From the NCBI RefSeq assembly GCF_900108065.1, contig NZ_FNVQ01000001.1, positions 2,108,001 through 2,172,000 of the forward strand: a DNA stretch of 64,000 nt, read 5' to 3'. Position 1 is the first letter of the stretch. Each line of letters opens with the position of its first letter. Source of the stretch: Marinobacterium lutimaris. Its GTDB lineage: Bacteria; Pseudomonadota; Gammaproteobacteria; Pseudomonadales; Balneatricaceae. Made by a program: the position numbers and the translations under genes. This document shows positions 37,303-62,722 of the stretch, one piece after another. Under the pieces are notes generated by a model. It was not told the origin of the DNA and made no database searches. It saw only the letters and a list, made by a program, of their open reading frames with translations.

Positions 37303-37510
37303 GCAATCCATCCCCTTTGGTGCAGCCGAGCATCGCAGACTGAAAGAGAGATAAGGGACAGGCTGTTTGAGCAGCAACGCTGCGAGTTTCCTGTCCCGCT
37401 CTTTCAGACGAGAAGCACAGGGGAGTCGGCGCAGCCGACCAAACCATAGGGGCGGTTTGGGATTGCAAAGAGACTTGTCCGTACAAGTCTCTTTGCTCGG
37501 CAGCAGCCGA
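37303..37510 (-). repeat. Structured dispersed element, copy A
   Basis: A repeated non-coding element of about 200 bases, read on the minus strand. In order: hairpin 0 (CGGC, loop TGCT, 37497-37510), hairpin 1 (14-base perfect stem GCAAAGAGACTTGT, loop ACGG, 37465-37496), a linker AATCCCAAACCGCCCC, hairpin 2 (GTCGGC, loop TGC, 37425-37439) and a long hairpin 3 at 37340-37407. Hairpin 3 has outer stem CTGAAAGAG, middle stem GGGACAGG and an apical five-base GCAGC stem. It ends near AAGGGGAT. Copies B and C share loops and linkers, but stem bases change in pairs. Any coding frame across it is judged accidental. Confidence 0.85.
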
Positions 37511-37584
37511 AACCGGCCTCGTAAAGGACGCGGATACGGGGATTCATTCGTCGGTAGGTTTATCCAAACTCTCTTATAGGGAGC

Positions 37585-37598
37585 TTGATGCAAATCAA
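37585..37598. promoter_or_regulatory. Perfect FNR/Anr box with no obvious target gene
   Basis: TTGATGCAAATCAA is an exact TTGAT-N4-ATCAA match, extended by one more pair on each side. The nearest plus-strand gene starts 314 bases away and the minus side has only repeat copy A. At the usual -41.5 spacing a plus-strand transcript would begin near 37633 and a minus-strand one near 37550, the latter with a weak GATAAA -10. The same bases also form a hairpin with a GCAA loop, so an RNA role is an alternative. Confidence 0.55.
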
Positions 37599-37649
37599 GC
37601 CTGCTATACAGGTGGATTTGCCAATTAAGCCCCAGCGATACAAAAGCCG

Positions 37650-37683
37650 CGACACGAAAGTGTCGGAGTCTGCTTTAGACTCC
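37650..37683 (+). repeat. Two adjacent small hairpins (GAAA and GCTTT loops)
   Basis: CGACAC-GAAA-GTGTCG (37650-37665) is followed at once by GAGTCT-GCTTT-AGACTC (37666-37682). The GAAA loop is a GNRA tetraloop, typical of stable RNA. The GCTTT loop recurs, with a different stem (TCAGCT), on the minus strand at 62725-62741. This suggests structured RNA or a second family of repeat elements. Confidence 0.65.
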
Positions 37684-37843
37684 AGGCCAGCGGCACTGAA
37701 CGCCGAAATCGGGCTAAGCTTTCCCTGCATGCAGCTTCTCATCCCGGCTCCAGGCTTGAGCCAAACATCGTTTCGGCCAGACTCTTATGAGCCAGCATGC
37801 TTGGCTTCAACCATTATATTCCATTTAATTATTTGCTTATTCT

Positions 37844-37855
37844 ATATAATTATAT
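37844..37855 (+). promoter_or_regulatory. -10 element inside an AT palindrome, persulfide operon promoter
   Basis: ATATAATTATAT is a perfect 12-base palindrome containing the -10 hexamer TATAAT (37845-37850), about 57 bases before the ATG at 37912. Two TTATATTC repeats lie around it. ArsR-type sulfide/persulfide repressors (BigR/SqrR) bind such AT-rich palindromes over the promoter of persulfide dioxygenase genes, so this is a candidate operator. The regulator gene is not in the window. Confidence 0.4.
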
Positions 37856-37911
37856 TCTAATATTTAGAAGATCATATCCCCACCTACATCTCATCAACCG
37901 TGGGAGCTCAG

Positions 37912-38769
37912 ATGCAGATTATTCCTTTTTTCGACAAGGCCACCTTCACCTTCAGCTACATCGTTATCGATGAAGCGACGCGCCAGTGCACCCTTATCGA
38001 CTCCGTGCTGGATTACGACGCCGCCTCCGGGCGCACCTCCACCGCCAGTGCCGACCGGCTGATCAGCTATGTGCGCGAACACCAGCTAAGTGTGGAGTGG
38101 ATTCTGGAAACCCATGTTCATGCCGATCACCTTAGCGCGGCGCCTTACTTGAAGCAGGTCCTCGGCGGAAAATTGGGCATCGGCGAGCATATCCGTACGG
38201 TGCAGCTCACCTTTGGCAAGCTGTTCAACGCCGGTACCGAGTTCGCCACCGATGGCAGCCAGTTCGACCATCTGTTCTGTGATGACGAGACCTTTACCAT
38301 CGGCAACCTGAGTGCCAGAGCTCTGCATACTCCTGGGCATACCCCGGCCTGCATGACCTACCTGATCGAAGACGCAGGCTTCGTCGGCGATACCCTGTTT
38401 ATGCCGGATTACGGCACCGCGCGCTGCGACTTCCCCGGTGGCGATGCGCGTACCCTGTACCGTTCCATACAGAAGCTGCTGGCCCTGCCAGACGAAACCC
38501 GGCTGTTCATGTGCCACGACTACAAGGCGGAAGGACGCGACGAGTACCTCTGCGAAACCACCGTCGCCGAGCAGCGCCAGCACAATATCCACATCTCAGA
38601 GGGCCACAACGAAGAGAGCTTCGTGAAGATGCGCAGCGAACGTGATGCAACCCTGGGAATGCCGGTACTGATCCTGCCCTCGGTGCAGATCAACATGCGC
38701 GCCGGCGAGCTGCCGCCCGCCGAAGATAACGGCACCCGCTACCTGAAGATTCCGCTGAACAAGCTCTGA
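37912..38769 (+). CDS. MBL-fold persulfide dioxygenase-like protein (Blh/ETHE1 type)
   Basis: A 285-residue metallo-beta-lactamase-fold enzyme. Metal ligands are visible in ETHVHADHLSAAPYLK, TPGHTPACMTYL, GFVGDTLFMPDYGTARCDFPGG and FMCHDYKAEGRDEY. This set is that of the Blh/ETHE1-like group, which oxidises glutathione persulfide to sulfite using mononuclear iron. The start ATG 37912 has GGGAG six bases upstream; the GTG at 37900 is rejected. First gene of a three-gene operon with a SulP transporter and a rhodanese, which supports a role in sulfide or persulfide detoxification. Confidence 0.9.
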   Translation: MQIIPFFDKATFTFSYIVIDEATRQCTLIDSVLDYDAASGRTSTASADRLISYVREHQLSVEWILETHVHADHLSAAPYLKQVLGGKLGIGEHIRTVQLTFGKLFNAGTEFATDGSQFDHLFCDDETFTIGNLSARALHTPGHTPACMTYLIEDAGFVGDTLFMPDYGTARCDFPGGDARTLYRSIQKLLALPDETRLFMCHDYKAEGRDEYLCETTVAEQRQHNIHISEGHNEESFVKMRSERDATLGMPVLILPSVQINMRAGELPPAEDNGTRYLKIPLNKL

Positions 38770-38777
38770 GACCAACC

Positions 38778-40577
38778 ATGATCCGGCTTCCCAAAATTAC
38801 AGCCTCGCAGCTGCTCCCCTGCCTGAGCTGGGCACGCGAATACAATCGCGATATGGCACTCAAGGATGGCCTAGCCGCGGTGATCGTCACGCTGATGCTG
38901 ATTCCGCAAAGTCTCGCCTACGCCATGCTGGCGGGGCTACCGCCGGTGATCGGTCTTTATGCCAGTATCCTGCCGCTGATCGCCTATGCGCTGTTCGGCA
39001 CCAGCCGCGCACTGGCAGTGGGCCCTGTGGCGGTGGTCTCACTGATGACCGGCGCCATCCTGATGCCGCTGTTTCCAGCGGGTAGCGCGGAGTATGTCCA
39101 GGCGGCCATGCTGATGGCGATGCTCTCCGGTCTGATTCTGATCGGCATGTCGCTGCTGCGACTCGGTTTCCTGGTCAACTTTCTCAGCCACCCGGTGGTC
39201 TCCGGCTTTGTCACCGCCTCGGGCATTCTGATCACCCTCGGCCAGCTGCGTCATATCCTCGGCATCAAGGCCGGCGGCGATACCGCCTTTGAGCTTCTGG
39301 CCTCAACGCTGGAGGGCCTTGGCGCTACCAACCTGCCGACCCTGCTGATCGGCCTCGGCAGCATCGCTTTCCTCTACCTGGCACGGAAACAGGGCAAGAG
39401 CTTCCTGGAAGCTATCGGCCTCTCAACCGGCGCTGCCGCCAATCTGAGCCGCGCCGCGCCGGTGCTGGCGCTGGTCGTCACCGCGGCACTGGTGGCCTGG
39501 CTGAACCTGGCAGAAGCCGGCGTTCCCGTGGTTGGTCAGGTACCAACCGGTTTACCCTCGCTGCAGTTGCCGACATTCGACCTGGCACTGATCTACCAGC
39601 TACTGCCCGGTGCCGTGCTGATCAGCCTGGTGGGCTTTATGGAATCGGTCTCCGTGGCGCAGACCTTTGCCGCGCGGCGGCGCCAGCGCATCCACCCCAA
39701 CCAGGAACTCAGCGCCCTGGGCAGCGCCAATATCGCCTCGGCGATCAGCGGTGGTATGCCGGTGACCGGCGGTTTCTCCCGCTCCGTGGTCAGCTTTGAA
39801 GCCGGTGCCCAGACACCGCTGGCCGGTGCCCTTTCAGCCCTGGGAATTGGTGTGACGGTGATGTTCTTCACCCCACTGTTTGAGAGCCTGCCAAGGGCGG
39901 TGCTTGCGGCCACTATTATCGTCGCCGTACTCACCCTGGTGGATCTGCGCGCTATCGGCCGCACCTGGAAGTATTCGCGCCAGGACGGCCTCGCCCTGAT
40001 AGCCACGCTGGTGGGCGTGCTGGTTGTCGGCGTAGAGACCGGCATTATCCTCGGACTCGCGCTGTCACTGCTACTGTTCCTCTGGCGCACCAGCAAACCG
40101 CATATGGCGGTAGTCGGCCAGTTGCCCGGCAGCCAGCACTTTCGTAACGAGGAGCGTTTTCATGTGGTGCAGAGCCCCCATGTGCTGACGGTGCGGGTGG
40201 ATGAAAGCCTCTATTTCCCCAACGCCCGCTACCTGGAAGATCGTATCGCCGCACTGGTGGAATCCCATCCGGGTATCGATGCCCTGGTGCTGATGTGTCC
40301 TGGCGTGAACCTGATCGATGCCAGCGCCCTTGAAAGCCTTGAAGCGATCAATGAACGACTCGGCACCGCCGGCATCACCCTGCACCTCTCCGAGGTGAAA
40401 GGCCCGGTCATGGACCAGCTGCACAAAAGCCATCTGCTGCAACAGCTCACCGGCAACGTCTACCTGAGCCAGTACGAAGCGATGGCGGCACTGGACCCGG
40501 AAACAACACAACGCACGCTGGCGACCAAAGCGGAAGCCTGCGCAAAAAAACAGCCAATGGAGGAACAGCAATCATGA
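38778..40577 (+). CDS. SulP (SLC26) family anion transporter with STAS domain
   Basis: A 599-residue inner-membrane transporter. About 10-12 membrane segments include LKDGLAAVIVTLMLIPQSLAYAMLAGLPPVIGLYAS, the family signature, and ALGSANIASAISGGMPVTGGFSRSVVS. A C-terminal cytoplasmic STAS domain follows (about residues 455-570, LMCPGVNLIDASALESLEAINERL). SulP proteins move sulfate, bicarbonate or related anions. It lies eight bases after the dioxygenase gene and overlaps the rhodanese gene by four bases, so sulfite or sulfate export or import is the likely role here. Confidence 0.94.
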   Translation: MIRLPKITASQLLPCLSWAREYNRDMALKDGLAAVIVTLMLIPQSLAYAMLAGLPPVIGLYASILPLIAYALFGTSRALAVGPVAVVSLMTGAILMPLFPAGSAEYVQAAMLMAMLSGLILIGMSLLRLGFLVNFLSHPVVSGFVTASGILITLGQLRHILGIKAGGDTAFELLASTLEGLGATNLPTLLIGLGSIAFLYLARKQGKSFLEAIGLSTGAAANLSRAAPVLALVVTAALVAWLNLAEAGVPVVGQVPTGLPSLQLPTFDLALIYQLLPGAVLISLVGFMESVSVAQTFAARRRQRIHPNQELSALGSANIASAISGGMPVTGGFSRSVVSFEAGAQTPLAGALSALGIGVTVMFFTPLFESLPRAVLAATIIVAVLTLVDLRAIGRTWKYSRQDGLALIATLVGVLVVGVETGIILGLALSLLLFLWRTSKPHMAVVGQLPGSQHFRNEERFHVVQSPHVLTVRVDESLYFPNARYLEDRIAALVESHPGIDALVLMCPGVNLIDASALESLEAINERLGTAGITLHLSEVKGPVMDQLHKSHLLQQLTGNVYLSQYEAMAALDPETTQRTLATKAEACAKKQPMEEQQS

Positions 40578-40954
40578 AAACGGCCATGGACCTAGTCGGC
40601 GCCGCCAAGGCACAAATTCAGGAGATCGACACAGAAGGCGCCGAGATGCAGACAAAATCTGCCGATGCGATTATCGATGTACGTGAACCCGATGAGTTTG
40701 CCGCCGGCCATCTGCCGGGCGCGATCAATATTCCGCGCGGCCTGCTGGAGTTCAAGCTGAGTGCCGACGAGGCCCTGTCTGCACGGGATCTGAATATCCT
40801 GCTCTACTGCAAGACCAGCGGCCGTGCGGCCCTGGCGGCACAGGCGATGAAAGAGATGGGCTACCTGCATGTCAGCTCGATCAGCGGCGGCTTCGACGCC
40901 TGGCTGCAAGCCGGCAAGCCGGTATTTACACCCAGCCTGCCGGACTTCGACTAA
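40574..40954 (+). CDS. Single-domain rhodanese
   Basis: A 126-residue sulfurtransferase with IDVREPDEFAAGHLPGAINIPRG and the active-site loop LLYCKTSGRAALAA, whose Cys carries the persulfide. It transfers sulfane sulfur between thiosulfate, glutathione persulfide and acceptors. The ATG overlaps the SulP stop (ATGA), and a strong terminator follows. With the upstream dioxygenase it would connect persulfide, sulfite and thiosulfate. Confidence 0.93.
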   Translation: MKTAMDLVGAAKAQIQEIDTEGAEMQTKSADAIIDVREPDEFAAGHLPGAINIPRGLLEFKLSADEALSARDLNILLYCKTSGRAALAAQAMKEMGYLHVSSISGGFDAWLQAGKPVFTPSLPDFD

Positions 40955-40980
40955 GCTTTCAGCGCCTAAATTCAACCTCC

Positions 40981-41017
40981 AAAACCGCGGCCCCGCCCTG
41001 GCAGTCGCCGCGGTTTT
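40981..41017 (+). terminator. Terminator after the persulfide operon
   Basis: AAAACCGCGGC pairs with GCCGCGGTTTT over 11 bases with a 15-base loop, ending in TTTT. It lies 26 bases past the rhodanese stop. Confidence 0.85.
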
Positions 41018-41153
41018 GCCTGTCGCAAAGATAAAATCATCTCCCCTGTTCACGCCAAATTATGCGCAAAAATGAACTTTCGCTAATACTGGTTATCGGA
41101 CAAAACGTTCCATTTAACCAACAAGGCCCGATGAGCAGGGCCTGGGAGAGACC

Positions 41154-41537
41154 ATGACAAACCATCCGACACGTAGCCGTTTTCTTGCCTGGATTCTCAT
41201 GGCGTTGTTCACCTTCGCCGGCGTTCAGGTACCCGCCTCAGCCGCCATTGTCACCACTGACCAAATAGCCGCCGACTCCCACCTCGAAGATCGACGGTCT
41301 GAAATCAAAGAGATGCTGACCCGCGACGACGTCAAGCAACAGCTGGTGGATCTGGGCGTGGATGTGAACCATGTACAGGACCGTGTCGATAGCATGACCG
41401 CAAGCGAACTGGCCCAGCTTGACGGTAAGATGGATGATCTTCCCGCCGGCGGTATTCTCGGTGCCGTTCTGGCCGTTATCCTGATTCTTGTTCTTCTGGA
41501 TCTGCTCGGCGCCACCGATGTATTCCCCAATATCTAA
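41154..41537 (+). CDS. PA2779-like small exported protein
   Basis: A 127-residue protein with a signal peptide (MALFTFAGVQVPASAA), a helical acidic middle (LEDRRSEIKEMLTRDDVKQQLVDLGVDVNHVQDRVDSMTASELAQLDGKMDDLPAGG) and a C-terminal membrane helix (GILGAVLAVILILVLLDLLG) ending TDVFPNI. This is the layout of the PA2779 family, which always seems to precede a PA2778-type peptidase. Their open frames overlap by 20 bases here. The joint function is unknown. Confidence 0.88.
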   Translation: MTNHPTRSRFLAWILMALFTFAGVQVPASAAIVTTDQIAADSHLEDRRSEIKEMLTRDDVKQQLVDLGVDVNHVQDRVDSMTASELAQLDGKMDDLPAGGILGAVLAVILILVLLDLLGATDVFPNI

Positions 41538-42522
41538 GCGCTCAGCCGCGCCCGGGCACACGCCCGGGCGCTCCGTTTTCTGTCCCCTGTTTGCCCTGTT
41601 TGCCACCTTGCTTATGCTCGGCGGCTGCAGCGCTACTCCTCAGACCAACGCCCTGTTGAGCAGTCCGCTGCCGGAGCAGGAACCGCTGAGTGCGGAGTTG
41701 ACCGAGGTTCCCTTCTACCCTCAGGAGCAGTACCAGTGCGGCCCTGCTGCCCTGGCGACACTGCTGGAGTACAGCGGCCGGGAGGTCACACCTGACGACC
41801 TGGTGCCCAGGGTCTATGTACCTGAGCGCGAAGGGAGTTTTCAGGTCGAGATGCTCGGCGCCACGCGCCAGTATCAGCGTATCGCCTACCCCATCGAACC
41901 GCAGCTTGAGGCACTGATCGGTGCCATCGATGCCGGTTATCCGGTACTCGTGCTGCAGAACCTGGCGATGGAGTGGTACCCGCGCTGGCACTACGCAGTC
42001 GCGATCGGTTATGACCTGGAGGACGAAACCATCATTCTCCGCACCGGCGTCACCGAGCGTTATGCGGCCGATATGAAGGTGTTTGAGCGCACCTGGGAGC
42101 GCGGTGATTACTGGGGCATGGTGGCGGTTAAACCCGGCGATATGCCGCCGGATGCGGATGCCCGAGACTATTTCCAGGCGGTCGCAGCCTTTGAGCGCCC
42201 GGCGCCGGAAGTACAGGCCCGAACCGCCTGGCAAACTGGCCTGCAACACTGGCCAGACGATCGTTCACTGCTGATGGGTTATGGCAACCATCTGTATAAC
42301 GCAGGCCTGCCCGCTCAGGCCGGGGAGCAGTATCTGAGGGTGACCCAGCTGTATGCGGACTATGCTCCCGCCTACAACAATCTGGCGCAGACACTGATCG
42401 ACACCGGCCAACCCTCAGCGGCGCTCAATTATGCCCGCAAGGCGGTATCGCTCGGCAATGAGCAGCAAGTCGAGGTGTATCGCCAGACACTGGAGCAGGC
42501 TGAGAACGCACTGGCGGATTGA
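41518..42522 (+). CDS. PA2778-like C39-type cysteine peptidase lipoprotein with TPR
   Basis: About 334 residues. The export signal ends in a lipobox (LLMLGGC). The papain-like C39 domain has the catalytic Cys in YQCGPAALATLLEYSG and His in RWHYAVAIGYD. The C-terminal half carries tetratricopeptide-like helices (YADYAPAYNNLAQTLIDTGQPSAALNYARKAVSLG). ATG 41518 is used; it lies inside the end of the PA2779 gene and has no clear ribosome site, consistent with coupled translation. Family partner of PA2779; the substrate of the peptidase is not known. Confidence 0.87.
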   Translation: MYSPISKRSAAPGHTPGRSVFCPLFALFATLLMLGGCSATPQTNALLSSPLPEQEPLSAELTEVPFYPQEQYQCGPAALATLLEYSGREVTPDDLVPRVYVPEREGSFQVEMLGATRQYQRIAYPIEPQLEALIGAIDAGYPVLVLQNLAMEWYPRWHYAVAIGYDLEDETIILRTGVTERYAADMKVFERTWERGDYWGMVAVKPGDMPPDADARDYFQAVAAFERPAPEVQARTAWQTGLQHWPDDRSLLMGYGNHLYNAGLPAQAGEQYLRVTQLYADYAPAYNNLAQTLIDTGQPSAALNYARKAVSLGNEQQVEVYRQTLEQAENALAD

Positions 42523-42547
42523 GTCTCAGCAAAGCATTTCGCGCATA

Positions 42548-42575
42548 AAAAAGCCTGGGAACCCCCAGGCTTTTT
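42548..42575. terminator. Bidirectional terminator
   Basis: AAAAAGCCTGGG pairs perfectly with CCCAGGCTTTTT over 12 bases with a four-base loop. It sits between the convergent PA2778 and aldolase genes and can serve both. Confidence 0.93.
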
Positions 42576-42598
42576 CGTTTCCATGCACTTAACGCCGA

Positions 42599-43330
42599 TC
42601 AGTCCTTATAGGAAGGATCAATACGGTCCAGCTTACGCAGCCAGGCCTGCCATACCATCTGGCGCTCAGATTCGGTCGCCTTGAACTGGCCACAGACGTA
42701 CTGCGCCAGCGACTCTGGAATCTCCGAGACCTGTGTCAGCGCCGCCATCTGCGCGGCTGCCAGCTGGATCTCACACGCCTTATTCAGGTAATACATCACC
42801 TGGAAGGCATCGGCGATGGTTTCACCGACGCTGAGCAGGCCATGACTCTGCAAAATCAGCGCGATGTTATCGCCCAGTGACTGCTGAATCCGCTCACGCT
42901 CCTCCAGGTTGAACGCCACCCCCTCGTAGGGGTGGTAGCCGACCCGGTTATAGAACTCGGCACTGATCTGGTTCAGTGTCAGCAGGCCCTTGTCACAGGC
43001 CGCCACCGCCATGCCCGGCAGGGTGTGGGTGTGGATGACGCAGTGCGCATCTTCCCGCGCCATATGCACGGCACTGTGGATGGTGAAACCGGCCGGGTTG
43101 TACTTGGCATCGCCATCGACCACCTTGCCGTTTACATCGACCACGATAAGATCGCTGGCGCGAATCTCATCGAACATATAACCGAACGGGTTAATCAGGA
43201 AGCGCGGCTCACCTTCACCCGGCAGTCGCACGGAAAAGTGAGTGTAGATTGTGTCTTCCCAGCCCAGCATCGCTGCCAGGCGGTACGATGCAGCCAGATC
43301 GCGTCGTAGTTCCGCTTCTGTTGCCATCAT
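42599..43330 (-). CDS. Class II aldolase/adducin family protein
   Basis: A 243-residue zinc-dependent aldolase-fold protein. Zinc-ligand histidines are in [15 protein letters not shown] and [10 protein letters not shown], with the N-terminal [25 protein letters not shown]. Family members cleave or decarboxylate hydroxy-acids or act as dehydratases; the substrate is not readable. Last gene of a six-gene operon: its ATG overlaps the transporter stop by four bases (ATGA). In this context it probably acts on the carbon skeleton left after amine removal. Confidence 0.88.
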
Positions 43331-44862
43331 GCTATTGCCTCCGCTTTACCCATAAACTCTCTTGCACGCAGCAGATTGGGTGTGCTGCTATCCGCGTTGA
43401 TGATCTGCGCCGGAGACGCATCTGCCTGGATCACGCCATGTTCCATCATCACCACACGATCGGAGACGCTCAGTGCAAAATCCATCTCGTGAGTGACGAT
43501 AATCAGTGTCATCCCCTCTTTCGCCAGATCCTGGATCACCTTGAGCACTTCGCCCACCATCTCCGGATCCAGCGCCGAGGTCGGCTCATCGAAGAGTATG
43601 ATATCAGGTGAGAGCGCCAGGGTACGGGCGATCGCCACACGCTGCTGCTGACCGCCGGAAAGCTGATGCGGATATTTATCGGCATGCATCAGCAGCCCGA
43701 CACGGTCCAGCAGATACAACGCCTGCTTGCGGTTCACTTCCAGCTCCGCCGGTTTACCGTGGTAGCGCGGCGCCATCATGATGTTTTCCAGCGCGGTTTT
43801 GTGCGGGAACAGGTTGAAGCTTTGGAACACCATGCCGATGCGTTGCATCCCGGCGCGCACCCGGTTCCGATCCGGCGTAGTGCCGCCCTTGATGAAATCT
43901 TCGCCGAACAGCACGATCTCGCCGCCGTTGAGCTCTTCCAGCATGTTCACGGTGCGGATCAGGGTAGTTTTACCCGAGCCCGACGGCCCAATCACGCTGA
44001 TTACCTCACCGATGCCCACGTTCATATCAACGCTTTTGAGTACCTGGTGCTCACCGTAGGATTTCTGAATGCCGCGCAGCTGCAGCGCCTTGGGCGCACC
44101 ATGGGACGGCGCCGGCTGGCGGGTCGGTAACGGCTGCACCTCTTTACGCAAACGTTCGCACTCGGCATCGCTGAGCGTACCTGGGCGACGTGAAGGCACA
44201 TCGAGCTTTTTCTCGGCCCACTGCAGCACCGAGCCAAACACGGTCACGATCATCACGTAGTACACCGCCACCGCCAGCAGGGTCTCCAGCACCAGGAAGT
44301 TTTGGGCATAGAGACGCTGACCGGTCTGCAGCAGCTCCGGCAGCGAGATCGCCGATACCAGCGAGCTCAGCTTGATAATGGTGACATATTCATTGATCAG
44401 CGACGGCATGGAGATACGGATCGCCTGGGGGATCACGATCATCCGCTGCACGCCAAGGAATCCGATATTCAGGGCATGGCCCGCTTCGCGCTGGCCCTTG
44501 GCCACCGACAGCAGACCGCTGCGATGAATCTCTGCCATGTAGGCTGCTTCCGTGACCACCAGGCTCACCAGGCCGGCGATAAAGGGCACGCCGAGGAATG
44601 AGCCGGTGGAGGGAAACAGCTGAGGCAGGTTGAACACAAATACCAGTACCACCAGCAGGGGTACGCTGCGGAAGAACCACACGTACAACCCTGCCGGGAT
44701 ATTCAGCCAGCGATGGCTGGACATTTTCGCAGAAGCGACAAGGAAGCCCAGAGCGAGCCCTATTCCCCACGACAGCGTGCTGAGAACCACCACCGTGACA
44801 CACGCTTTCCAAAACGCGGCCAGGGTAAATAACGAGAAGAAATAGTCCCAATCCAGGCTCAT
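43327..44862 (-). CDS. Amino-acid ABC transporter, permease fused to ATPase
   Basis: A 511-residue fusion. Residues 1-225 are a HisM/GlnP-type permease (coupling [28 protein letters not shown]). After a proline-rich linker, residues 250-500 are a GlnQ-type ATPase with Walker [11 protein letters not shown], signature [13 protein letters not shown] and Walker [15 protein letters not shown]. These are normally two genes. It lies 34 bases after the binding-protein gene and overlaps the aldolase gene, completing an importer for a polar, probably basic or guanidino, amino compound. A single permease implies a homodimer. Confidence 0.94.
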
Positions 44863-44896
44863 AATTCGCTCCTGTTTTTACGTTAACCGCCGCTCG

Positions 44897-45700
44897 TTAT
44901 TCGACCGGCGTCAGCTCGTACTTCTCGATCAGCGCCGCGTAGGAACCGTCAGCCTTGATCTCTTCCAGCGCCTTTTCCAGCGCCTCTTTCATCTCGGTGT
45001 TGCCCTGTTTCACGTACATGCCCAGGGTCTGCGGATACACCAGTTCCGGAGAGCTGATCTCGAGACGACCCCGGGTACGCTCAACAAACATCTTGGCTGC
45101 GCCGGCAATCTCCAGCTGTGCTTCGACGTTGCGGGACATCAGCGCCTGGGAAACTTCCGGCGCGGTGGGGAATTCCTGAATCTCTACCGGCTCTTTGCCG
45201 TTGGCTTCGCAGTAATCGGTAGACAGGCTCTGCAACTGGCTGACCCAGGCGGTACCCTGCTGCAGACCGACGTTAACGCCACACAGATCTTCAGCGGTCT
45301 GAGGTTTAACCTCGCTGTCCTTCATCACCAGGATGGAGGCGCCGGTCAGACCGTAAGGAATCGCATCGGCCTTTTTCAGGCGGTCTTCGGTGATGTACAT
45401 ACCGGAGATAACGGCATCAAACTTGTTGGCGCCCAGGCCCAGGATCAGACCGGTGAACTTGGTGTCGTGGAAGCTGGCGGTCGCTCCCATTTTCTCTGCC
45501 AGCAGAGCGGAAATTTCCGGGTCAAAACCGACCACTTTGTCGCCGTCGTAGGATTCGAACGGCGGATAGCTGATCTCCATACCCACTTTCAGATCACCCT
45601 CTGTCATCAGGGGTGCTGCACTGACAGCCTGGCTCAGGATGCCCGCAGACAGTACGGAAAGCCCGGTTTTTACAAGCGCTTTGGTCATCTTCACGGTCAT
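44897..45700 (-). CDS. Amino-acid ABC transporter periplasmic binding protein
   Basis: About 267 residues of the SBP_bac_3 (GlnH/ArgT-like) family. It has a signal peptide ending AVSAAPLM, the mature start LKVGMEISYPPFESYDGDKVVGFDPEISALLAEKMGA, then YGLTGASILVMKDSEVK and TPQTLGMYVKQGN-like segments. The start ATG 45700 follows GAGGAG. It delivers its ligand to the fused permease-ATPase encoded next. Residues that would define the ligand cannot be judged without a structure. Confidence 0.93.
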   Translation of the reverse strand: MTVKMTKALVKTGLSVLSAGILSQAVSAAPLMTEGDLKVGMEISYPPFESYDGDKVVGFDPEISALLAEKMGATASFHDTKFTGLILGLGANKFDAVISGMYITEDRLKKADAIPYGLTGASILVMKDSEVKPQTAEDLCGVNVGLQQGTAWVSQLQSLSTDYCEANGKEPVEIQEFPTAPEVSQALMSRNVEAQLEIAGAAKMFVERTRGRLEISSPELVYPQTLGMYVKQGNTEMKEALEKALEEIKADGSYAALIEKYELTPVE

Positions 45701-45756
45701 GCTCCTCAAAGGGATTATCAGTTATTCAGTTTCTTCAGATTTTTATTTCGCGGTTT

Positions 45757-53343: not shown

Positions 53344-56019
<2,676 letters not shown>

Positions 56020-56385
56020 CGATATCTCCTTGGCCATAATCTGCGTCAGGTGCCCAAACCGGGCTCCGGGCGTTCTGTTTGAATGTTCACGGGCTTGAGA
56101 TGTTCTGGATACAGGGCAGCGCGAAGAGCCTAATACGGAATTATTGTTGTGCACGCTAAAAGCGCTTCAGCGTCTCTCATTTCGGACAAGCCGCTTACCG
56201 ATACAGTTCAAAATAGTTCATTAGGGTGGGGGATTCAGGTTTCAACCGGGTAACAACAGCGTTGCAGACCCTGCATCTATCTGGGGTTGTGTTGCCAGAA
56301 GAACTGAAAACAGCACCCTGCGCAGATGCTGTGGATGGGGGAAAATCGCCCTATTGCCGTAAAAATCGCTGAAAACGGGCCCAGT
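56020..56385. other. acnA promoter region and end of the regulatory hydrogenase operon
   Basis: A 366-base gap. The part next to acnA is its leader, AT-rich around 56130-56160. The remainder shows no ORF, palindrome or terminator strong enough to name. Confidence 0.4.
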
Positions 56386-57837
56386 TTAATGAACCGTACA
56401 TACCATGCATGGATCGAAGCTGCGTACGATATGCTGAACCGCCACCGGATCGGTTTCACCTTCACGCACCGGTGTGCCCACCAAAGCCTGTTCCAGCGCA
56501 CCCGGCTGCCCTGAGGCGTCCCGCGGAGAGAAGTTCCAGGTGGTCGGCGCGATAATCTGGTACTGGCTGATGCGCCCCTTGCGAACCTCGATCCAGTGAC
56601 CCAGGCTGCCGCGGGCTGCTTCCATCAGGCCGACGCCCTCGCCATCGGTGATCGACGACGGATGGTTACAGAAAGGCTCTTCCGGCTCGATCATCTGGGC
56701 CCACTGCTGCAGTCTGGGCAGCATTTTCGCCAGCTCCAGCAACCGCGCCAGCATTCGCGTCTTCACATTGGCACCCTCTTTTCTGGCCATTGCGGTCAGC
56801 AGGGGATCGCCATCCACCAGCGCCCTCGCCAGAGCACCGGTTTCCATCACCTGGCCTGCGTAACGCGGCGCTTTGCACCAGCTGTAAGCGCCCTCTTTCT
56901 CAGCCACTGGTTCGGTCTCGCCCTGTTGCGGATGCAAAGCCTCCGACGGGCGCATCCAGGCGTGGCTGACATCCTCGACGATCCTGCCGGCATCAAAACC
57001 GGAGAGGCCCTGGTCCGGCGTCCAGATCCCCTGGCCAACGGCATTTACCCCTTCCAGCGAGTAATTACCAAAGCTCATAAAACGGTCAACACTGCGGCCC
57101 AGCCCTGCAAAGCCTAGCTGCTCGGAGAGATGCAGAAAGGTACGCAGATCGTCATGCTGCCAGGGCTTTTCATGGCGCCAGTTCTCCAGCTGCGCTGGAG
57201 TCTGGATCGCCTGCACCCGCTCAAGGTCATCGCCAAACAGGGTCTTTTCCAGAAAGCGGCGAAACCCACTGAGGATCGCCATCAGCCGCAGCCGCTCCTG
57301 TCGCTGCACCGGCTTGGTGCTGCCGCCAGGCTGGATACTCAGCGTATGTGGCCACTTACCCGCCAGCAGGCCCATCAGATGCAGAAACTCGGCGCGAGCC
57401 GGCAGCACATCGCGAGTCGCCTCGCCTTTCACCGCACGGAAGCGAGTTGCAACCTGGTTATACCAGAGCTCGGCGGCATAGGTTTCCCGCGCCAGGTCCG
57501 GCATAAAGAACAGGTAAAAGTGAGTCAGCAGATCGGTAAGGGATTCGTTCGCCAGCACCAGGTTACGGCACAGTTCACCGTTGCGGGTAGGCTTGATACC
57601 GAGCGCCTGAGACAGCGCCTGAGCCGCCGCCACCGACTGGCTTACCGAGCAGATCCCGCAGATACGCGGCACGTAGACCAGCGCATCCAGCGCCGGCTTG
57701 CCCACCAGTATCTGTTCGAAACCGCGATAGAGCGTGGAGTTCACCCGTGCTTCGGTCACCTGGCCATTATCGGTGTCCAGGGCAATATCCAGATCACCCT
57801 CCACCCGATTGAAAGGGCCGACTACAACTCTGCTCAT
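56386..57837 (-). CDS. hupV: Regulatory [NiFe] hydrogenase large subunit
   Basis: A 483-residue H2-sensing large subunit (HupV/HoxC, group 2b). It has the nickel ligands RICGICSVSQSVAAAQAL near the N-terminus and SFDPCMVCTVH at the very end. There is no C-terminal extension after the His, so no protease processing is needed, a hallmark of these sensors. GPFNRVEGDLDIALD is the expected N-terminus. It lies 31 bases after hupU. Together with HupU it detects H2 and controls kinase HupT. Confidence 0.96.
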   Translation of the reverse strand: MSRVVVGPFNRVEGDLDIALDTDNGQVTEARVNSTLYRGFEQILVGKPALDALVYVPRICGICSVSQSVAAAQALSQALGIKPTRNGELCRNLVLANESLTDLLTHFYLFFMPDLARETYAAELWYNQVATRFRAVKGEATRDVLPARAEFLHLMGLLAGKWPHTLSIQPGGSTKPVQRQERLRLMAILSGFRRFLEKTLFGDDLERVQAIQTPAQLENWRHEKPWQHDDLRTFLHLSEQLGFAGLGRSVDRFMSFGNYSLEGVNAVGQGIWTPDQGLSGFDAGRIVEDVSHAWMRPSEALHPQQGETEPVAEKEGAYSWCKAPRYAGQVMETGALARALVDGDPLLTAMARKEGANVKTRMLARLLELAKMLPRLQQWAQMIEPEEPFCNHPSSITDGEGVGLMEAARGSLGHWIEVRKGRISQYQIIAPTTWNFSPRDASGQPGALEQALVGTPVREGETDPVAVQHIVRSFDPCMVCTVH

Positions 57838-57868
57838 GAACGCGTTCTCAACTCTTCATTTATCGAAA

Positions 57869-58894
57869 TTATTTAGAAGAAGCCTTATTACCGGAAGTCT
57901 TCTTGGCAGAAGGCGGATAAATCAATTGCTCTGAGCGGGCGTTTTCCTTCAGGCGCTCCGGCGTAGCAGCTTTCGACAGGGACGCCAGTGCGACAAACCA
58001 GGCCTTGGGCATATCGGTGGGCAGCCCCACGGGAATACCTGCGATTTTAGGTGTTTCGGTAAAGCGGTGGCGCGGCTCTTCAAACTCCGGCGCCGTGCAG
58101 TTGATGCAGGGATAACCACCCCGCGTACAGGAGCCTTCGCCATTCCAGGGCCGGGTATTGCAGTCACCATGGGCCTGGGTGCCCAGGCACCCGAGATGCT
58201 CCATCATGCAGCCCTGATGTCCCAGCGCCTCTGCACTGGCCTTGTATTCGTAGTATTCATTGCGGGTACAACCGTGATGCACCAGCTGATCGGCATAGAG
58301 CCTGGGCCGCACCAGGGCATCCAGCCGTTCGGGATCGCCCTCGCCCAACGCCAGCTCGATCAGCGACTCGGTCACCCAGTTAGGATGCACCGGGCAACCC
58401 GACACATTCACCACCGGCAGATCGCCACCAGAGCGATAATCGCTGCCCAACAGGCCACCGCGCAGCTCTCCTTCAAACTGCAGCCCGGTGGCATCGGTAG
58501 GGTTATCGCCCGCCGTGCTGATACCGCCAAAGGCAGCGCAGGAGCCGATCGCGAGGGTATACCGCGCCTTGGCGGCCAGTTGCTCAACCCAGTGGATCAT
58601 CGGGATACCGGTGCCACCGAGGAGATGAAAACGGCCTGTACCCATGGGGCCGCGCATCATCGAGCCTTCGATGCAGAGCAGATCCAGCTCGGTGCGCCCT
58701 TCGAGGATATCGTCCAGCAACTGGCGAACTTCCGCGCCGGTCTGCTCACTCAGGGAAGGATGCCAGAGCAGGTTGATACCCGCGCTTTCCAGTGTGGTGA
58801 TCAGGTCGGGCGCCTCCGCCCCCAGCAGGGACATGGAACAACCACCACAACCTCCGGACTGCAGCCAAAGCAGGTTAGCCATCAGCACTTTCAT
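57869..58894 (-). CDS. hupU: Regulatory [NiFe] hydrogenase small subunit
   Basis: A 341-residue cytoplasmic small subunit (HupU/HoxB). It has no Tat signal and begins KVLMANLLWLQSGGCGGCSMSLL, with the proximal-cluster Cys-x2-Cys. GSCAAFGG, SGCPVHPNW, HHGCTRNEYYEYKA and CNTRPWNGEGSCTRGGYPCINCTAPEFEEP provide the remaining cluster ligands. It lacks a membrane anchor, as in all HoxB proteins. The gene overlaps the hupT stop by 20 bases, so the kinase and sensor are translated together. Confidence 0.96.
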   Translation of the reverse strand: MKVLMANLLWLQSGGCGGCSMSLLGAEAPDLITTLESAGINLLWHPSLSEQTGAEVRQLLDDILEGRTELDLLCIEGSMMRGPMGTGRFHLLGGTGIPMIHWVEQLAAKARYTLAIGSCAAFGGISTAGDNPTDATGLQFEGELRGGLLGSDYRSGGDLPVVNVSGCPVHPNWVTESLIELALGEGDPERLDALVRPRLYADQLVHHGCTRNEYYEYKASAEALGHQGCMMEHLGCLGTQAHGDCNTRPWNGEGSCTRGGYPCINCTAPEFEEPRHRFTETPKIAGIPVGLPTDMPKAWFVALASLSKAATPERLKENARSEQLIYPPSAKKTSGNKASSK

Positions 58895-60227
58895 CCAGAC
58901 CTGGCGCCGGCTGGCTGGCCGGCAGGGTCAACTGTGCGACAGCGCCGCCTTCCGCGCCGTTAATAATCTTCAAGGTGCCACCATGTTCGTTGACGATTCC
59001 GTAGCTGATCGAAAGCCCAAGCCCGGTGCCCTGCCCAGTGGGCTTGGTGGTAAAGAAGGGATCAAACAGACGCGGCAGATTCTCCGGCGCGATCCCCTGT
59101 CCGTTGTCGGCCACGCTGAGCCAGGCCAGCCCCTGATCACTGCCCGCCTCTATTTTCAGCGCTGGTTTGGGCTGATCAGCGACGGCATCGGCGGCATTCT
59201 GGATCAGGTTTACGACGACCTGATGAATCTGGCCGGAGTGTCCCACCACCTCGAGTTTATCCGGCAGCTCCAGATCCACATGGATCGCCACCTTGCTCTC
59301 CTTGGTGATCCAGTGCAGTGCCGAGCGCACCACGTGGATCAGATCGAAAGGCGCCTTCTCGCTACTCTGGGTGGATGAGAACTGGCGCAGGTCATTAACG
59401 ATCTCGCGCACCCGGTCCGCCCCCTCCATGGTGCCTTCGACCAGCGAATCCAGATCGGCGATCGCCCGATCCAGGCGCAGCTTTTGGCGCAGCTCGCGCA
59501 GCTCATCACGGCTCGCGCCGGACTGTACCAGGTCGAAATACTCCACCAGTCGTCCGGTGTAGCGCCGCAGGGCGTGCATATTGCCATAAACGAAGCTAAT
59601 CGGGTTGTTGAGTTCGTGGGCCACGCCGGCCACAAGACGACCGAGGGAGGCCATCTTTTCTGCCTGGATCAGCCGCTCCTGCGCCAGCTTCAGCTCGGCG
59701 TGGGCCTGGTGCAGTTCATTAAAGGCACACTGCAGCTCACCCAGCGGGCGACCCGCCACGACTATCCCGGCCAGACGGCCACGTTGATTGAAACGGGGGG
59801 AACAGTTCAGCGCCAGCGGCTCCGGGCCATTAACGCCATCGATGCTGATCTCCTGATCGCGCACCGCCTCCTTGCGGACCCGCTGCAGACACTGCACCAG
59901 CTTGTCGCGGCTCTCGCCGCTGCAGAGGCTTTCCATCGGCTGGTCCAGCAGCGATTCCATGGTGCGACCGGTAAGCTCTTCAAAGGCGCGGTTAACCTGC
60001 TGAATCCGCCCCTCGTGATCGCAGGCGATCAGCACATCGCTCATGGCCGACTGCACGCTGTCGACGAAGTTATGGGCTTCCTCAAGCGCCTCGTTCTGCT
60101 CTTCCACCTGAACCTGATAGCGCACCAGATCGGCATAGGCCTCGTCCATCTTGCGTATAACGCTGACCCAGGCTTCGTCGGCCGTGCCCGATTCTTTGTG
60201 GCTGTTGGGGTGTTGCTGCTGCACCAT
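58875..60227 (-). CDS. hupT: Sensor histidine kinase HupT/HoxJ
   Basis: A 450-residue soluble kinase. A helical N-terminus is followed by a PAS domain (about residues 52-165, IACDHEGRIQQVNRAFEELTGR), the H-box with phospho-His about residue 204 (SLGRLVAGVAHELNNPISFVYGN), and a HATPase domain with N, G1 and G2 boxes (NLIQNAADAV, VADNGQGIAPENL, GTGLGLSISYGIV). No transmembrane helix. The complex with HupUV is inhibited or released according to H2. The cognate NtrC-like regulator HupR/HoxA is not encoded in the window. Start ATG 60227 behind GGGTAAG. Confidence 0.93.
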   Translation of the reverse strand: MVQQQHPNSHKESGTADEAWVSVIRKMDEAYADLVRYQVQVEEQNEALEEAHNFVDSVQSAMSDVLIACDHEGRIQQVNRAFEELTGRTMESLLDQPMESLCSGESRDKLVQCLQRVRKEAVRDQEISIDGVNGPEPLALNCSPRFNQRGRLAGIVVAGRPLGELQCAFNELHQAHAELKLAQERLIQAEKMASLGRLVAGVAHELNNPISFVYGNMHALRRYTGRLVEYFDLVQSGASRDELRELRQKLRLDRAIADLDSLVEGTMEGADRVREIVNDLRQFSSTQSSEKAPFDLIHVVRSALHWITKESKVAIHVDLELPDKLEVVGHSGQIHQVVVNLIQNAADAVADQPKPALKIEAGSDQGLAWLSVADNGQGIAPENLPRLFDPFFTTKPTGQGTGLGLSISYGIVNEHGGTLKIINGAEGGAVAQLTLPASQPAPGLDESADG

Positions 60228-60577
60228 CGTTTACTTACCCGTTTGGAAGATTCCAGACTACCGCCAGACCGCGGTCAGGCCAACCTCGGCGCACGGAAAC
60301 TCGTCACTTTGAAGCTCAGCACATTGAATGCACGAGCGAGTTTCCATTTAACACCCAGGGCGGCAACCAAATATCCACTTAAACAGCTAAAACCGTAGAT
60401 TCTGTATGCCTACGCATTGAACGTGCCGCCCCGGTCGCAGCCATCGCGAAGCCTCGATTTTCCGCTTTCCCCAGGCAATATCGCCCCTTAATTTCCCCGC
60501 AACGGCGGCGATGGCATCGCTTTTGCTCCATGACAGGGAAGAAAGTGTGGAAAGAAAATTAAGAGTAGGAAACAACA
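60228..60577. other. Divergent hupT/hupE regulatory region
   Basis: A 350-base gap. The right part contains the sigma-54 promoter of hupE (60511-60527). The left part contains the hupT leader; a weak GG-N10-GC match on the minus strand near 60360-60375 was not accepted. No ORF was seen. Confidence 0.5.
60511..60527 (+). promoter_or_regulatory. Sigma-54 promoter of hupE
   Basis: TGGCATCGCTTTTGCT at 60512-60527 matches the consensus TGGCACG-N4-TTGCW with GG and GC exactly 10 bases apart and an intact TTGCT. The predicted start is near 60538, leaving a 40-base leader with GAGTAGGA before the ATG. The position next to the H2-sensing genes supports control by a HupR/HoxA-type activator. Confidence 0.75.
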
Positions 60578-61132
60578 ATGAAGAAACAGCTTTTCACCGC
60601 TGCACTGCTGCTGGGCCCGAGCCTGGCATTCGCCCACCCCGGCCATGAAACCGGTGGACTGATTGCCGGCCTGACTCACCCGCTGATGGGTCTGGACCAT
60701 CTGCTGGCGATGCTGGCCATCGGCATCTGGGCCGCACTGCAGCAGGGCAAAATGAAACTGGCGATGCCAATCACCTTCGTTGGCGTATTGATCGCCGGTT
60801 TCGCCCAGGGCGTTGCCGGCGTGAGCCTTCCGATGGTTGAAAGCGGCATCGCACTCTCGGTACTGCTGCTGGGCCTGATCATCACCGTCGCCGCCCGCCT
60901 GCCCGCTTCTGCCGCTCTGGCGCTGACCTCTGTTTTCGCCCTGTTTCACGGCTATGCCCACGGCGCCGAAGCCACAGGCTCACTGGCCCTGTTCGCCATC
61001 GGTTTCTCCGTCACCAGCGCCCTGCTGCACCTGAGCGGTATCGCCGTAACCGACAAGCTGAAAGCGCTGCCAGCCGTTGTTCGCAGCGCCGGTGCTGCCA
61101 TCGCGGCCAGCGGTGTATGGATGCTTAGCTGA
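60578..61132 (+). CDS. hupE: HupE/UreJ nickel permease
   Basis: A 184-residue membrane protein. It has a cleavable signal ending AFAHPGHE and six helices, with the HPGHETGGLIAGLTHPLMGLDHLLAM signature of the family and a second motif ALFHGYAHGAEA, both rich in His. Family members import Ni2+ by diffusion for hydrogenase or urease. It is divergent from the H2-sensor operon, which argues for hydrogenase supply. Followed by a strong terminator. Confidence 0.95.
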   Translation: MKKQLFTAALLLGPSLAFAHPGHETGGLIAGLTHPLMGLDHLLAMLAIGIWAALQQGKMKLAMPITFVGVLIAGFAQGVAGVSLPMVESGIALSVLLLGLIITVAARLPASAALALTSVFALFHGYAHGAEATGSLALFAIGFSVTSALLHLSGIAVTDKLKALPAVVRSAGAAIAASGVWMLS

Positions 61133-61189
61133 GGGTCTCCACCCTTTTCACCCCCAGGTAGTGTTTTACCGACACTCCGCGTAAGTTTT

Positions 61190-61213
61190 CCGGGCCTTGT
61201 GCCCGGTTTTTTT
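61190..61213 (+). terminator. Terminator after hupE
   Basis: CCGGGC pairs with GCCCGG over six bases, with the loop CTTGT and a run of seven Ts. Confidence 0.92.
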
Positions 61214-61257
61214 GTTTGGTGGGACGATTCTTATTTCGGAGTTTGTAGATGGTGCAG

Positions 61258-61457
61258 GTTCCGCCTGCTGGCGTATCAAGGATCTTGGACGGCCAAGATC
61301 CTTGATAATCCTAAGCCGCCCCGACAGCTTGATCGGCTGCGCCGATTACCCTGTGCTTCTCGCCTGAAAGAGCGGGAAGGGAAACTCGGCTTCGCCTCAA
61401 ACAGCCCTTCCCTTTTCTCTCTTTCAGCCTGCGATGCTCGGCTGCGCTGAAGGGGAA
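61258..61457 (+). repeat. Structured dispersed element, copy B
   Basis: Plus-strand copy of the element at 37303. Hairpin 0 (CGCC, loop TGCT, 61262-61273), hairpin 1 (14-base perfect stem ATCAAGGATCTTGG, loop ACGG, 61275-61306), the linker AATCCTAAGCCGCCCC, hairpin 2 (ATCGGC, loop TGC, 61332-61346) and hairpin 3 at 61364-61427 (outer CTGAAAGAG, middle GGGAAGGG, apical GGC/GCC). It ends with AAGGGGAA. Stem bases differ from copy A at many positions, yet pairing is kept. The 3' end faces the Phd cassette. Confidence 0.85.
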
Positions 61458-61532
61458 TCAGGGTGCTCTTAGCTAGCGAATTATTAAAATCAAAGAGACC
61501 CTAACCACCCATGATTTTATCAATGATAAAAT

Positions 61533-62189
61533 CTAACAAAACGCCTCGAAGAATCCTTTTTGCAAAGATGAATTCATCAAACCATATTTTTCAAAAACCT
61601 TAAAAGACTTATCTTTAAAACTTACATCGCCTCTAAACTTAAATTTATATTTTTCCTTATCAAAAAATTCAAAATAGTAAAGTAAATCAACCAAGTAATA
61701 TGAAACTTCCAGACTAGGAGCGTGATCAACCCAATGCATATAAGAATCATCATTTAGCCTCCTCACACGACCTTTATCCATATCACGAACTTTATCCCAC
61801 TGAATCTTTACATTTTGAACAAATCTTCGGTGATCATAATTTGGTATTTTTCTAGTTTTATACAGTTCTAAGTGTAACTCACTGAAAACACTAAAATCTA
61901 CTTTATGCGGAGCACTGTATTTTTCACCTTGATCTAAGTCTATTTTTCTTTTTTCATATTCATCGGCAATTCTTTTAAAGAAGGACTCTACATGACCGTA
62001 AATAAAACGTGTCTCATTATAGAATGCTCTCTCTAGTTTTATATTTCTTCGATAATCTAGAAAAGCTGAAGTTATAAATCCGAAGAATGCACCAAGAAAT
62101 GCGCCGATCAATGCCCCCATGATTGACCAAAAACCTTCTCCTATAAAATGCTCCATGCATACTCCAAAAATATTCAGTTTTGGCATCAT
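61533..62189 (-). CDS. AT-rich unknown membrane protein paired with a Phd antitoxin
   Basis: A 218-residue protein. Glycine-rich transmembrane helix (FWSIMGALIGAFLGAFFGFITSAFL, about residues 20-44), then a mainly helical, charged cytoplasmic domain rich in Lys, Asp, Tyr and Phe. No family was recognised. Base composition is far lower in GC than the neighbours, a sign of recent acquisition. The ATG overlaps the antitoxin stop (two ATGs at 62189 and 62186). It occupies the position where the RelE/Doc-type toxin normally sits, so it could be a toxin of a new kind or a replaced passenger; neither is shown. Confidence 0.6.
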   Translation of the reverse strand: MMPKLNIFGVCMEHFIGEGFWSIMGALIGAFLGAFFGFITSAFLDYRRNIKLERAFYNETRFIYGHVESFFKRIADEYEKRKIDLDQGEKYSAPHKVDFSVFSELHLELYKTRKIPNYDHRRFVQNVKIQWDKVRDMDKGRVRRLNDDSYMHWVDHAPSLEVSYYLVDLLYYFEFFDKEKYKFKFRGDVSFKDKSFKVFEKYGLMNSSLQKGFFEAFC

Positions 62190-62452
62190 TTAGAATAATT
62201 CAGCCACTTACTCATCTTCGTCATCGCCTCAGTTTGAGCAAGCAGCTTTCCTTCAGCTACTGCTCGCTCTCCTCCTAAGATCCCCTCAAGTGATTCGACT
62301 CGGCGCTGCATAAGCTCATAGTCCTGCACATCAACGAGATAGGCCAGCGGCTGACCATGCTCAGTAATCTGCACAGGCTCTTTGGAAGAACTCAGGTCAG
62401 CTAGCATTTGGGATGTATCGTTCTTGAGGCTGGTAAGCGACTCAACTTTCAT
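62186..62452 (-). CDS. Phd/YefM family antitoxin
   Basis: An 88-residue protein beginning MKVESLTSLKNDTSQMLADL, with the family fold continuing through EPVQITEHGQPLAYLVDVQDYELMQRRVESLEGIL and a C-terminus EAMTKMSKWLNYSK of the toxin-binding type. The start ATG 62452 has AGGA seven bases upstream; the open frame to 62608 is not used. It overlaps by four bases the downstream gene on the same strand, the arrangement of toxin-antitoxin pairs, but the partner is not RelE-like. Confidence 0.87.
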   Translation of the reverse strand: MKVESLTSLKNDTSQMLADLSSSKEPVQITEHGQPLAYLVDVQDYELMQRRVESLEGILGGERAVAEGKLLAQTEAMTKMSKWLNYSK

Positions 62453-62603
62453 AGGCGTCCTGCTGATCAAATAAACATCAATACAACAGTAGCACTCTAC
62501 GAGAACCGTGGACACGAAATGAGCAGTGAATGACCGCGCCAAGGAGTATTGAGAAAGCACGGGGACAAAAAAGTTACGCACAAACCAACTAACCGCAGCC
62601 GTA

Positions 62604-62722
62604 TTCATCCCCCTTCAGTGCACAGCCGATCAAACTGTCGGGGCGGCTTGGGGTTATTAGGGGCCCATTTTTCATCAATGTAAGCGCACAAGGCCCCTAA
62701 TTCGCCAGCAAGGCGAAACCTG
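62604..62722 (-). repeat. Structured dispersed element, copy C, internally deleted
   Basis: Minus-strand copy. Hairpin 0 is TTCGCC/GGCGAA (62701-62717). Hairpin 1 has a 10-base perfect stem ATTAGGGGCC but an enlarged 26-base loop (62656-62701). The linker ends in CCCCAAGCCGCCCCGAC. After CGGCTG it jumps directly to the terminal TGAAGGGGGAT, omitting hairpin 3. The missing part is flanked by CGGCTGC in copies A and B, so deletion by recombination between those repeats is likely. It faces copy B across the Phd cassette. Confidence 0.8.

Follow-up and report, generated by a model that had tools for sequence, protein, structure and literature searches.

A dispersed structured element with covarying hairpin stems in Marinobacterium lutimaris and other Gammaproteobacteria

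A repeated element with several hairpins was studied in a stretch of 64,000 nucleotides of Marinobacterium lutimaris (contig NZ_FNVQ01000001.1, positions 2,108,001 to 2,172,000; hereafter the window), which is part of a 5.57 Mb genome. Three copies, A, B and C, lie in the window (table 1). Judging from sequence comparisons, we consider it probable (roughly 0.6) that the repeat is a structured, non-autonomous element, dispersed in many copies, that works as one folded single strand, namely the complement of the strand on which its hairpins had been folded in an earlier, sequence-only reading of the window. That reading had proposed a structured RNA or a hairpin-dependent mobile element of single-stranded DNA (ssDNA), and this proposal is supported by covariation over 64 aligned rows and by the lack of any Rfam match to the core.

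The coordinates reported earlier for the three copies agreed with the letters when they were rechecked. Copies A and B share hairpins H0, H1, H2 and H3 (the long one); their stems differ in sequence but remain paired, and the H1 of each forms 14 perfect pairs around ACGG, as had been described. The 27-mer CTGTGCTTCTCGYCTGAAAGAGCGGGA occurs exactly twice in the window (in a search tolerating up to 3 mismatches) and in none of 100 shuffles. For the covariation analysis, an alignment of 64 rows and 48 pairs (3072 cells) was compiled from copies aligned over >180 bases, one per identical sequence (61), to which copy A of the window and two rows from M. litorale were added; the latter are trimmed duplicates of the L073 rows, and 62 rows are independent. 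Standard pairs occupied 97.1% of the stem cells, compared with 87.2% after shuffling. Two-sided changes were found at 23 pairs and in 326 cells (13.3 pairs and 101.9 cells in shuffles), and the covariation score was 0.267 versus 0.087. None of 500 shuffles reached the figures for pairing, two-sided change or covariation, although kinship among the rows makes this test too lenient. When the partner columns were slid by 1–3, pairing fell to 40–53%. The earlier claim that the stems change in pairs was thus borne out, and the further copies, in which a missing excess of compensatory changes had been named as a refutation, showed a large excess instead.

The strand that folds was judged from the mismatches. 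A mutated G–C or A–T pair leaves G.T or A.C depending on the side that is hit, and the folding strand tolerates G.T, which the opposite strand reads as A.C. On the strand folded in the earlier reading, the 64-row genus alignment contained A.C in 53 cells (17 pairs) and G.T in 9 cells (3 pairs); therefore, the complement most likely folds. Read on the complement, the main stem of copies in other genomes had 21 G.T and 3 A.C, in an alignment fitted to a model of the complement strand and hence biased toward G.T. For H1, which lies outside the model and was sought by Watson–Crick pairs only, the counts were 14 and 2 (15 and 4 in a smaller set). The hairpins described earlier are real; the mismatch asymmetry assigns the fold to the opposite strand. 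Free energy gives no decision, as RNAalifold prefers the complement and single-copy folding the other strand. Taken at face value, these alignments indicate that what the element conserves is one folded single strand.

The three copies, all of them real, turned out to be a minor fraction of the family. In the M. lutimaris genome, at least 40 long BLAST matches were obtained, with 40 of 72 candidates being scored. For the core, a covariance model (R1) was built without H0 and H1 from 24 genus and 5 distant sequences (32 genus rows remained once long-insert copies and rows over 93% alike had been left out). It gave 43 matches in this genome at E ≤ 0.01, of which 40 exceeded 139 bits. The building of such a model and the search of related genomes had been suggested earlier, and relatives were indeed recovered: R1 matched 32 of 166 genomes in a gammaproteobacterial class sample including M. 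lutimaris, that is, 31 of 165 others, from 29 other families (E ≤ 0.001, strict filters, 18 candidates scored per genome). The best of these matches had E = 6.6e-23, and at least 12 scored matches were present in 5 of the 31 other carriers. Outside the class, Variovorax (a betaproteobacterium) contained two cores of 51.6 and 50.4 bits. The core is also shared by distant relatives, within Marinobacterium as well as in genus g7, whose stems differ. In an alignment of 55 matches, the unpaired segments GCCGAGCAUCGCAG, UGUUUGAG..CGAGUU and CGAGAAGCGCAGGG were conserved between stems without common sequence, and all four Watson–Crick pairs were used at 9 of the 10 positions of the main stem (43 distinct arm pairs). 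The exact pattern of the last hairpin was much more restricted; among 84,980 species genomes, a collection that possibly does not include M. lutimaris itself, it was found only in M. mangrovicola (18 stretches) and M. litorale (1). No phage matched the element; among plasmids, copy B had no match, a further search gave one hit at chance level, and a relative had none. An origin from phages or plasmids was rejected on these grounds. The tip motif was present in two IMG/VR stretches, one of which (L201) also holds a weak core.

H1 stands outside R1 and could be assessed separately. By the criterion of at least 9 net pairs after the core match, an H1-like hairpin followed the core in 44 of 51 matches that were distinct and long enough (of 55), several of them fetched by the H1 motif itself, versus 8 of 280 nearby control windows. 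When only loci retrieved with the core model by itself were counted (L182–L200), H1 was present in 24 of 30; in three exceptions, L182, L183 and L198, pairing between the two flanks of the core was seen by eye instead. The relation of H1 to the linker before it was analyzed in 31 of the 55 matches, those with an H1 of the pyrimidine-arm type or similar; eight rows of genus g7, matches without H1, duplicates and some weak matches were left out. The H1 loop was complementary over at least 4 bases to the linker in 15 of 21 distinct loops, whereas permutations gave a mean of 4.2 and a maximum of 11 in 5000. In addition, the linker followed a parallel third-strand rule (A to U, G to C, U to G) applied to the 3' arm of H1, with a score of 116, compared with 103.1 (standard deviation 2.8) in 5000 permutations, none of which reached 116. 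Based on the loop-linker pairing and this rule, we propose a triple-helix pseudoknot that, as the letters suggest, would be formed by the H1 loop, the linker and the stem. The H1 of Marinobacterium belongs to a different sequence type, and there the linker AATCCTA occurred in all 20 rows with an AAGGATC stem and in none of 44 others, an association that could be explained by shared descent.

According to the interpretation that we prefer, the folded strand would be a transcript, which is somewhat more likely than ssDNA; RNA is slightly favored because of the proposed pseudoknot and the conserved internal loops. A trans-acting factor would recognize the fold, and this recognition, whether for copying to new sites or for use by the host at each site, would keep the stems paired as their letters drift. 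One may go further and imagine a widespread bacterial family of RNA-based mobile elements, in which a transcript of ~200 bases with a triple-helix pseudoknot toward its 3' end spreads like a short interspersed element (SINE). It would do so through an RNA (or ssDNA) intermediate and a borrowed enzyme, entering gaps between convergent genes in either direction, singly or as inverted doublets. We regard this fuller picture as speculative and improbable as a whole.

Several observations weigh against a conserved folded RNA strand, or against parts of that reading. Further pair types were not in excess (41 versus 39.4 in shuffles). On the complement, the middle stem in other genomes, which is poorly aligned with 69 other mismatches, had 11 G.T and 13 A.C. 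Folded alone as RNA, copy B was more stable on the strand of the earlier reading (-99.3, z -4.7) than on the complement (-94.9, z -3.4). GCGNAGC, a very stable DNA mini-hairpin, was found in 34 of the 55 rows versus 4 for its other-strand form, and such mini-hairpins would suit ssDNA as well. H1 was missing from 7 of the 51 distinct matches, and where loci had been fetched by its own motif its presence is not independent. The third-strand rule was broken by L189, L190 and L195, and the alternative of a direct repeat between the linker and the 5' arm of H1 scored 113 against 106.9 (p 0.037). Finally, no target duplication was found at the junction of site A or in the end listings, no clean empty site was seen, and the search for an autonomous partner found none.

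The genomic placement of the copies bears on a different explanation. The 40 strong copies of M. lutimaris were mixed in orientation on the model strand (22 minus, 18 plus), and a replication-strand bias was provisionally rejected accordingly. Among 73 copy contexts of the genus, 47 were convergent, 14 were +/+, 6 were -/+ and 6 were -/-. These settings were taken from a longest-ORF (open reading frame) rule under which some calls are wrong, and some loci are counted twice (L059, L061 and L073 are one place, and L004, L006, L011 and L017 overlap neighbors). The repeat might therefore act as a transcription-end or mRNA-stability element between convergent genes, tolerated or selected at 3' ends. 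The ends of the long form adjoin terminator-like hairpins of neighboring genes, and opposite orientations in one gap would be tolerated by such an element. Moreover, excerpts of PMC2718517 describe a tail-repeat-tail bias for Pseudomonas fluorescens repeats, and convergent-gene placement is known for other stem-loop repeats. Nevertheless, a terminator needs neither the conserved internal loops nor the loop-linker pairing nor the third-strand rule, and any harmless insert would show the same bias of place. We consider this explanation quite unlikely.

Comparison with M. mangrovicola (G003) showed how the copies turn over. Seventeen gene gaps were occupied by a copy in both genomes. In 11 of them, both flanks matched and the copies had the same orientation; in two (L005/L056 and L004/L051), one flank alone matched; and in four (L025/L044, L016/L050, L003/L054 and L002/L057), the copies were oppositely oriented relative to the flanks. 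Flank homology in these four gaps ended 1 to 236 bases from the cores, and each copy resembled some other copy more than its partner. Because their orientations are opposite and the partners are not closest relatives, we read them as a sign of copy turnover; they are better explained by independent arrivals in one gap, or by replacement, than by simple inheritance. They are possibly hot gaps for arrival or places of in-place replacement. The same-orientation pairs were compared in 12 cases (L024/L042, counted for orientation, is absent from the similarity comparisons), of which seven were reciprocal best matches and five were not. In these 12 pairs, 21 of 576 stem pairs had changed on both sides (16 being standard in both copies) and 14 on one, while unpaired positions differed at 58 of 1003, the unpaired columns 128–187 being omitted for their variable length. 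Some of the two-sided changes may represent replacement, since L012/L052, L015/L041 and L023/L053 are not best matches. One M. mangrovicola copy, L051:3991, is unmatched at the corresponding place in M. lutimaris.

An alternative is a miniature inverted-repeat transposable element (MITE) of double-stranded DNA, in which gene conversion among copies and between arms, instead of selection on one strand, would keep the stems paired. A copy at a shared site often resembles copies at other places more than its partner, as the five pairs that are not reciprocal best matches illustrate, and short end similarities (CTAAGCGCA..TGCGCTTAG) are present. However, conversion from arm to arm would have no strand preference, whereas A.C and G.T are unequal in three data sets, and the loops and the loop-linker pairing that are conserved across families would be left unexplained. 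We judge this alternative to be very improbable.

A weightier rival to the folded-transcript reading, though still an unlikely one, is a REPIN-like ssDNA repeat (REPINs being doublets of repetitive extragenic palindromic, or REP, sequences). Such a repeat would owe its movement to a Y1 (HUH) transposase, of either the RAYT/TnpA-REP or the insertion sequence (IS) 200/IS605 type, that recognizes folded ssDNA. The mismatches favor one strand, as this would predict. Inverted neighbors were found in G168 (~190 bases apart), at loci of genus g7 and in Variovorax, and H1 ends ~511 bases apart occur in Paraburkholderia. REPINs with compensatory changes and inverted doublets are described in the excerpted text of PMC3116915. 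The M. lutimaris genome has one Y1_Tnp match (L079 1501–1692), in an open frame of 153 residues; the DNA upstream of it looks broken, and the neighboring sequence terminates with GACAACAAAAAGG, a resemblance to the end of the long form that is possibly due to chance. On the other hand, inverted neighbors were absent among the 40 strong copies of M. lutimaris, none of which is within 1 kb of another. When 31 Y1 loci were inspected (30 of 38 Y1 matches plus L079), a core lay within the fetched stretch in just two. Four of 16 carriers had no Y1_Tnp match; two of these, G128 and G136, each had 12 or more scored copies. In the end listings, which were read by eye only, no GT[AG]G foot was recognized. 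As for the precise empty site and cleavage tetranucleotide that mark the IS200/IS605 type, site A is without the element in M. mangrovicola, but ~19 other bases stand there instead and the junction is blurred. From the Y1 loci without a core and the carriers without a Y1_Tnp match, RAYT mobilization was rejected as a general mechanism. Two cores, L223 800–932 and L221 431–588, are within ~0.7 kb of Y1 matches (G113 and G209), and a third, G113:C11, is 0.4 kb from a Y1 match by coordinates; these are too few for a rule.

H1 also occurs apart from the core. Of 274 gammaproteobacterial genomes, 12 contained the motif TTTCTTTGCTTGCCCAAAGAAA with at most 1 mismatch (0 for the control), and a 49-base H1 consensus matched 21 records of a plasmid collection (Paraburkholderia 7, Burkholderia 7, Pasteurella 3, Pseudoalteromonas 2, Aeromonas 1 and Ilyobacter 1). 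Paraburkholderia caribensis NZ_CP012748 has 49 H1 sites in the forward listing, mostly as inverted pairs ~511 bases apart around a different centre. R1 had no match at the tested loci of Paraburkholderia, Burkholderia, Pseudoalteromonas and Ilyobacter, and therefore H1 ends and the R1 core are not always together. The units at L172, L173 and L175 of NZ_CP012748 are palindromic with inverted H1 ends, and some contain central ORFs resembling unrelated IS transposases. In Paraburkholderia units of 1.7–1.9 kb, the enclosed ORFs, which we take to encode IS256- and IS5-like transposases, differ between units and lie in either orientation; for this reason they were read as ordinary IS insertions, and an autonomous parent was rejected there. 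A pair 2.35 kb apart in G002 encloses genes.

The layout of the copies in the window is given in table 1. Two of the earlier descriptions needed amendment: the region called copy A is real, but it is the core of a longer form that is common to a subset of copies (e.g., L028, L029, L032, L033, L035 and L039), and copy C is an internally deleted copy rather than a full one. A deletion similar to that of copy C occurs at site B of M. mangrovicola. In copy B, the conserved internal loop of H3 reads CTGTTTGAG..CGAGTTT on the minus strand. B and C are oppositely oriented, and between them lies an antitoxin gene (62186–62608 minus; Phd/YefM-type, PF02604), which is followed by a gene for 218 amino acids without a Pfam match (61533–62189 minus); copy C is at the upstream end of the former. 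The window's long alignment to M. mangrovicola ends at copy B, and for this reason 61533–62608 may be an inserted toxin-antitoxin-like pair between two copies.

Table 1. Features of copies A, B and C in the window, with the probable folding strand
Feature	Position	Strand	Remarks
Copy B, whole conserved unit	61254..61472	-	GCAGG to TGCTCTTAG; earlier given as 61258-61457 plus
Copy B, H0	61262..61273	-	CGCC-TGCT-GGCG read on +
Copy B, H1	61275..61306	-	14 perfect pairs; stem letters vary among copies; two-sided changes in 10/14 pairs
Copy B, linker	61307..61318	-	Between H1 and outer helix; letters go with H1 type
Copy B, core	61319..61455	-	Closed by CCCC 61319-61322 and GGGG 61452-61455; span of model R1
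Copy B, H2	61332..61346	-	Loop on minus strand GCA within GCGCAGC
Copy B, long hairpin H3	61364..61427	-	Basal stem 61364-61372/61419-61427; middle stem 61374-61381/61405-61412
Copy A, core	37303..37510	+	Earlier given as minus
Copy A, long form	~37191..37619	+	~429 bases, with outer hairpins
Copy A, H1	37465..37496	+	GCAAAGAGACTTGT ACGG ACAAGTCTCTTTGC read on -
Copy C, internally deleted	62604..62722	+	H0, H1 with enlarged tip, linker, H2 fused to last hairpin

The distribution described above places a structured element in about a fifth of the sampled gammaproteobacterial genomes (31 of 165), with no Rfam match to its core in the tested loci. If it works as RNA, it would be a broadly spread class; if as ssDNA, it would be an unusually elaborate substrate for a mobilizing enzyme. 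Which of the two applies can be tested directly by means of the strand test and the covariance model.

The earlier reading had named a match to a known family as a refutation and knew of no named family with such a layout. In Rfam 15, no family matched the core in the window or in the tested loci (none at E ≤ 1 in one search), the matches of a further scan were all far below the cut-offs, and the two matches at 17 H1-motif loci both lay outside the core; a known RNA family was rejected accordingly. Neither such a layout nor a description of the repeat, searched for also by sequence string, was found in searches of an open-licence literature collection. Two catalogued families do touch H1. TwoAYGGAY (RF01731), a candidate CsrA-binding RNA according to excerpts of PMC4333381, matched Pseudoalteromonas L116 (3067–3180 minus; 51.3 bits, cut-off 43) on the folding strand and directly beside H1, at a locus found by the H1 motif. 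In contrast, R1 had no match at L116 (E ≤ 0.05), and just one of the 17 H1-motif loci matched RF01731, outside the core; the window contained none, nor did the M. lutimaris genome, where the search controls stayed silent too. H1 elements may carry various centres, TwoAYGGAY among them. ANGGA-like tip loops were seen by eye in the H1-linked loci L103, L105–L107 and L109–L111. A CsrA sponge was rejected, as no such loops were seen in the common Marinobacterium copies. The second family is the Burkholderia small RNA (sRNA) Bp1_684 (RF02421), whose match at Burkholderia cepacia L114 (3897–4008 minus, between aceF and lpdA; 118.8 bits) takes in H0 plus a few bases from one arm of H1, on the folding strand, although R1 had no match there (E ≤ 0.05). 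This catalogued sRNA candidate may be part of such an element.

Triple-helix pseudoknots are found in telomerase RNA, the SAM-II riboswitch and ENE. The present element resembles them in the loop-linker pairing and in a parallel pyrimidine strand along the stem, here in the form of a sequence rule only, and they are otherwise unrelated to it. Like REPINs and REPs, as far as the excerpts of PMC3116915 describe them, it consists of dispersed, multicopy, extragenic units with paired stems and compensatory changes, and in several related genomes its units lie as inverted neighbors. Unlike them, the unit has ~200 bases, several helices, conserved internal loops and loop-linker pairing, stands single in the M. 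lutimaris genome and has no general Y1/RAYT link. MRSC-65-2, a mobile or repeat candidate, shares with it a covarying motif, many copies per genome and no steady gene neighbor, but has a single long stem instead of a branched layout, to judge from excerpts of PMC11109978; of the 250 mobile or repeat candidates of that source, this one was compared, by its description. The kind of element is thus known, while its layout appears to be new.

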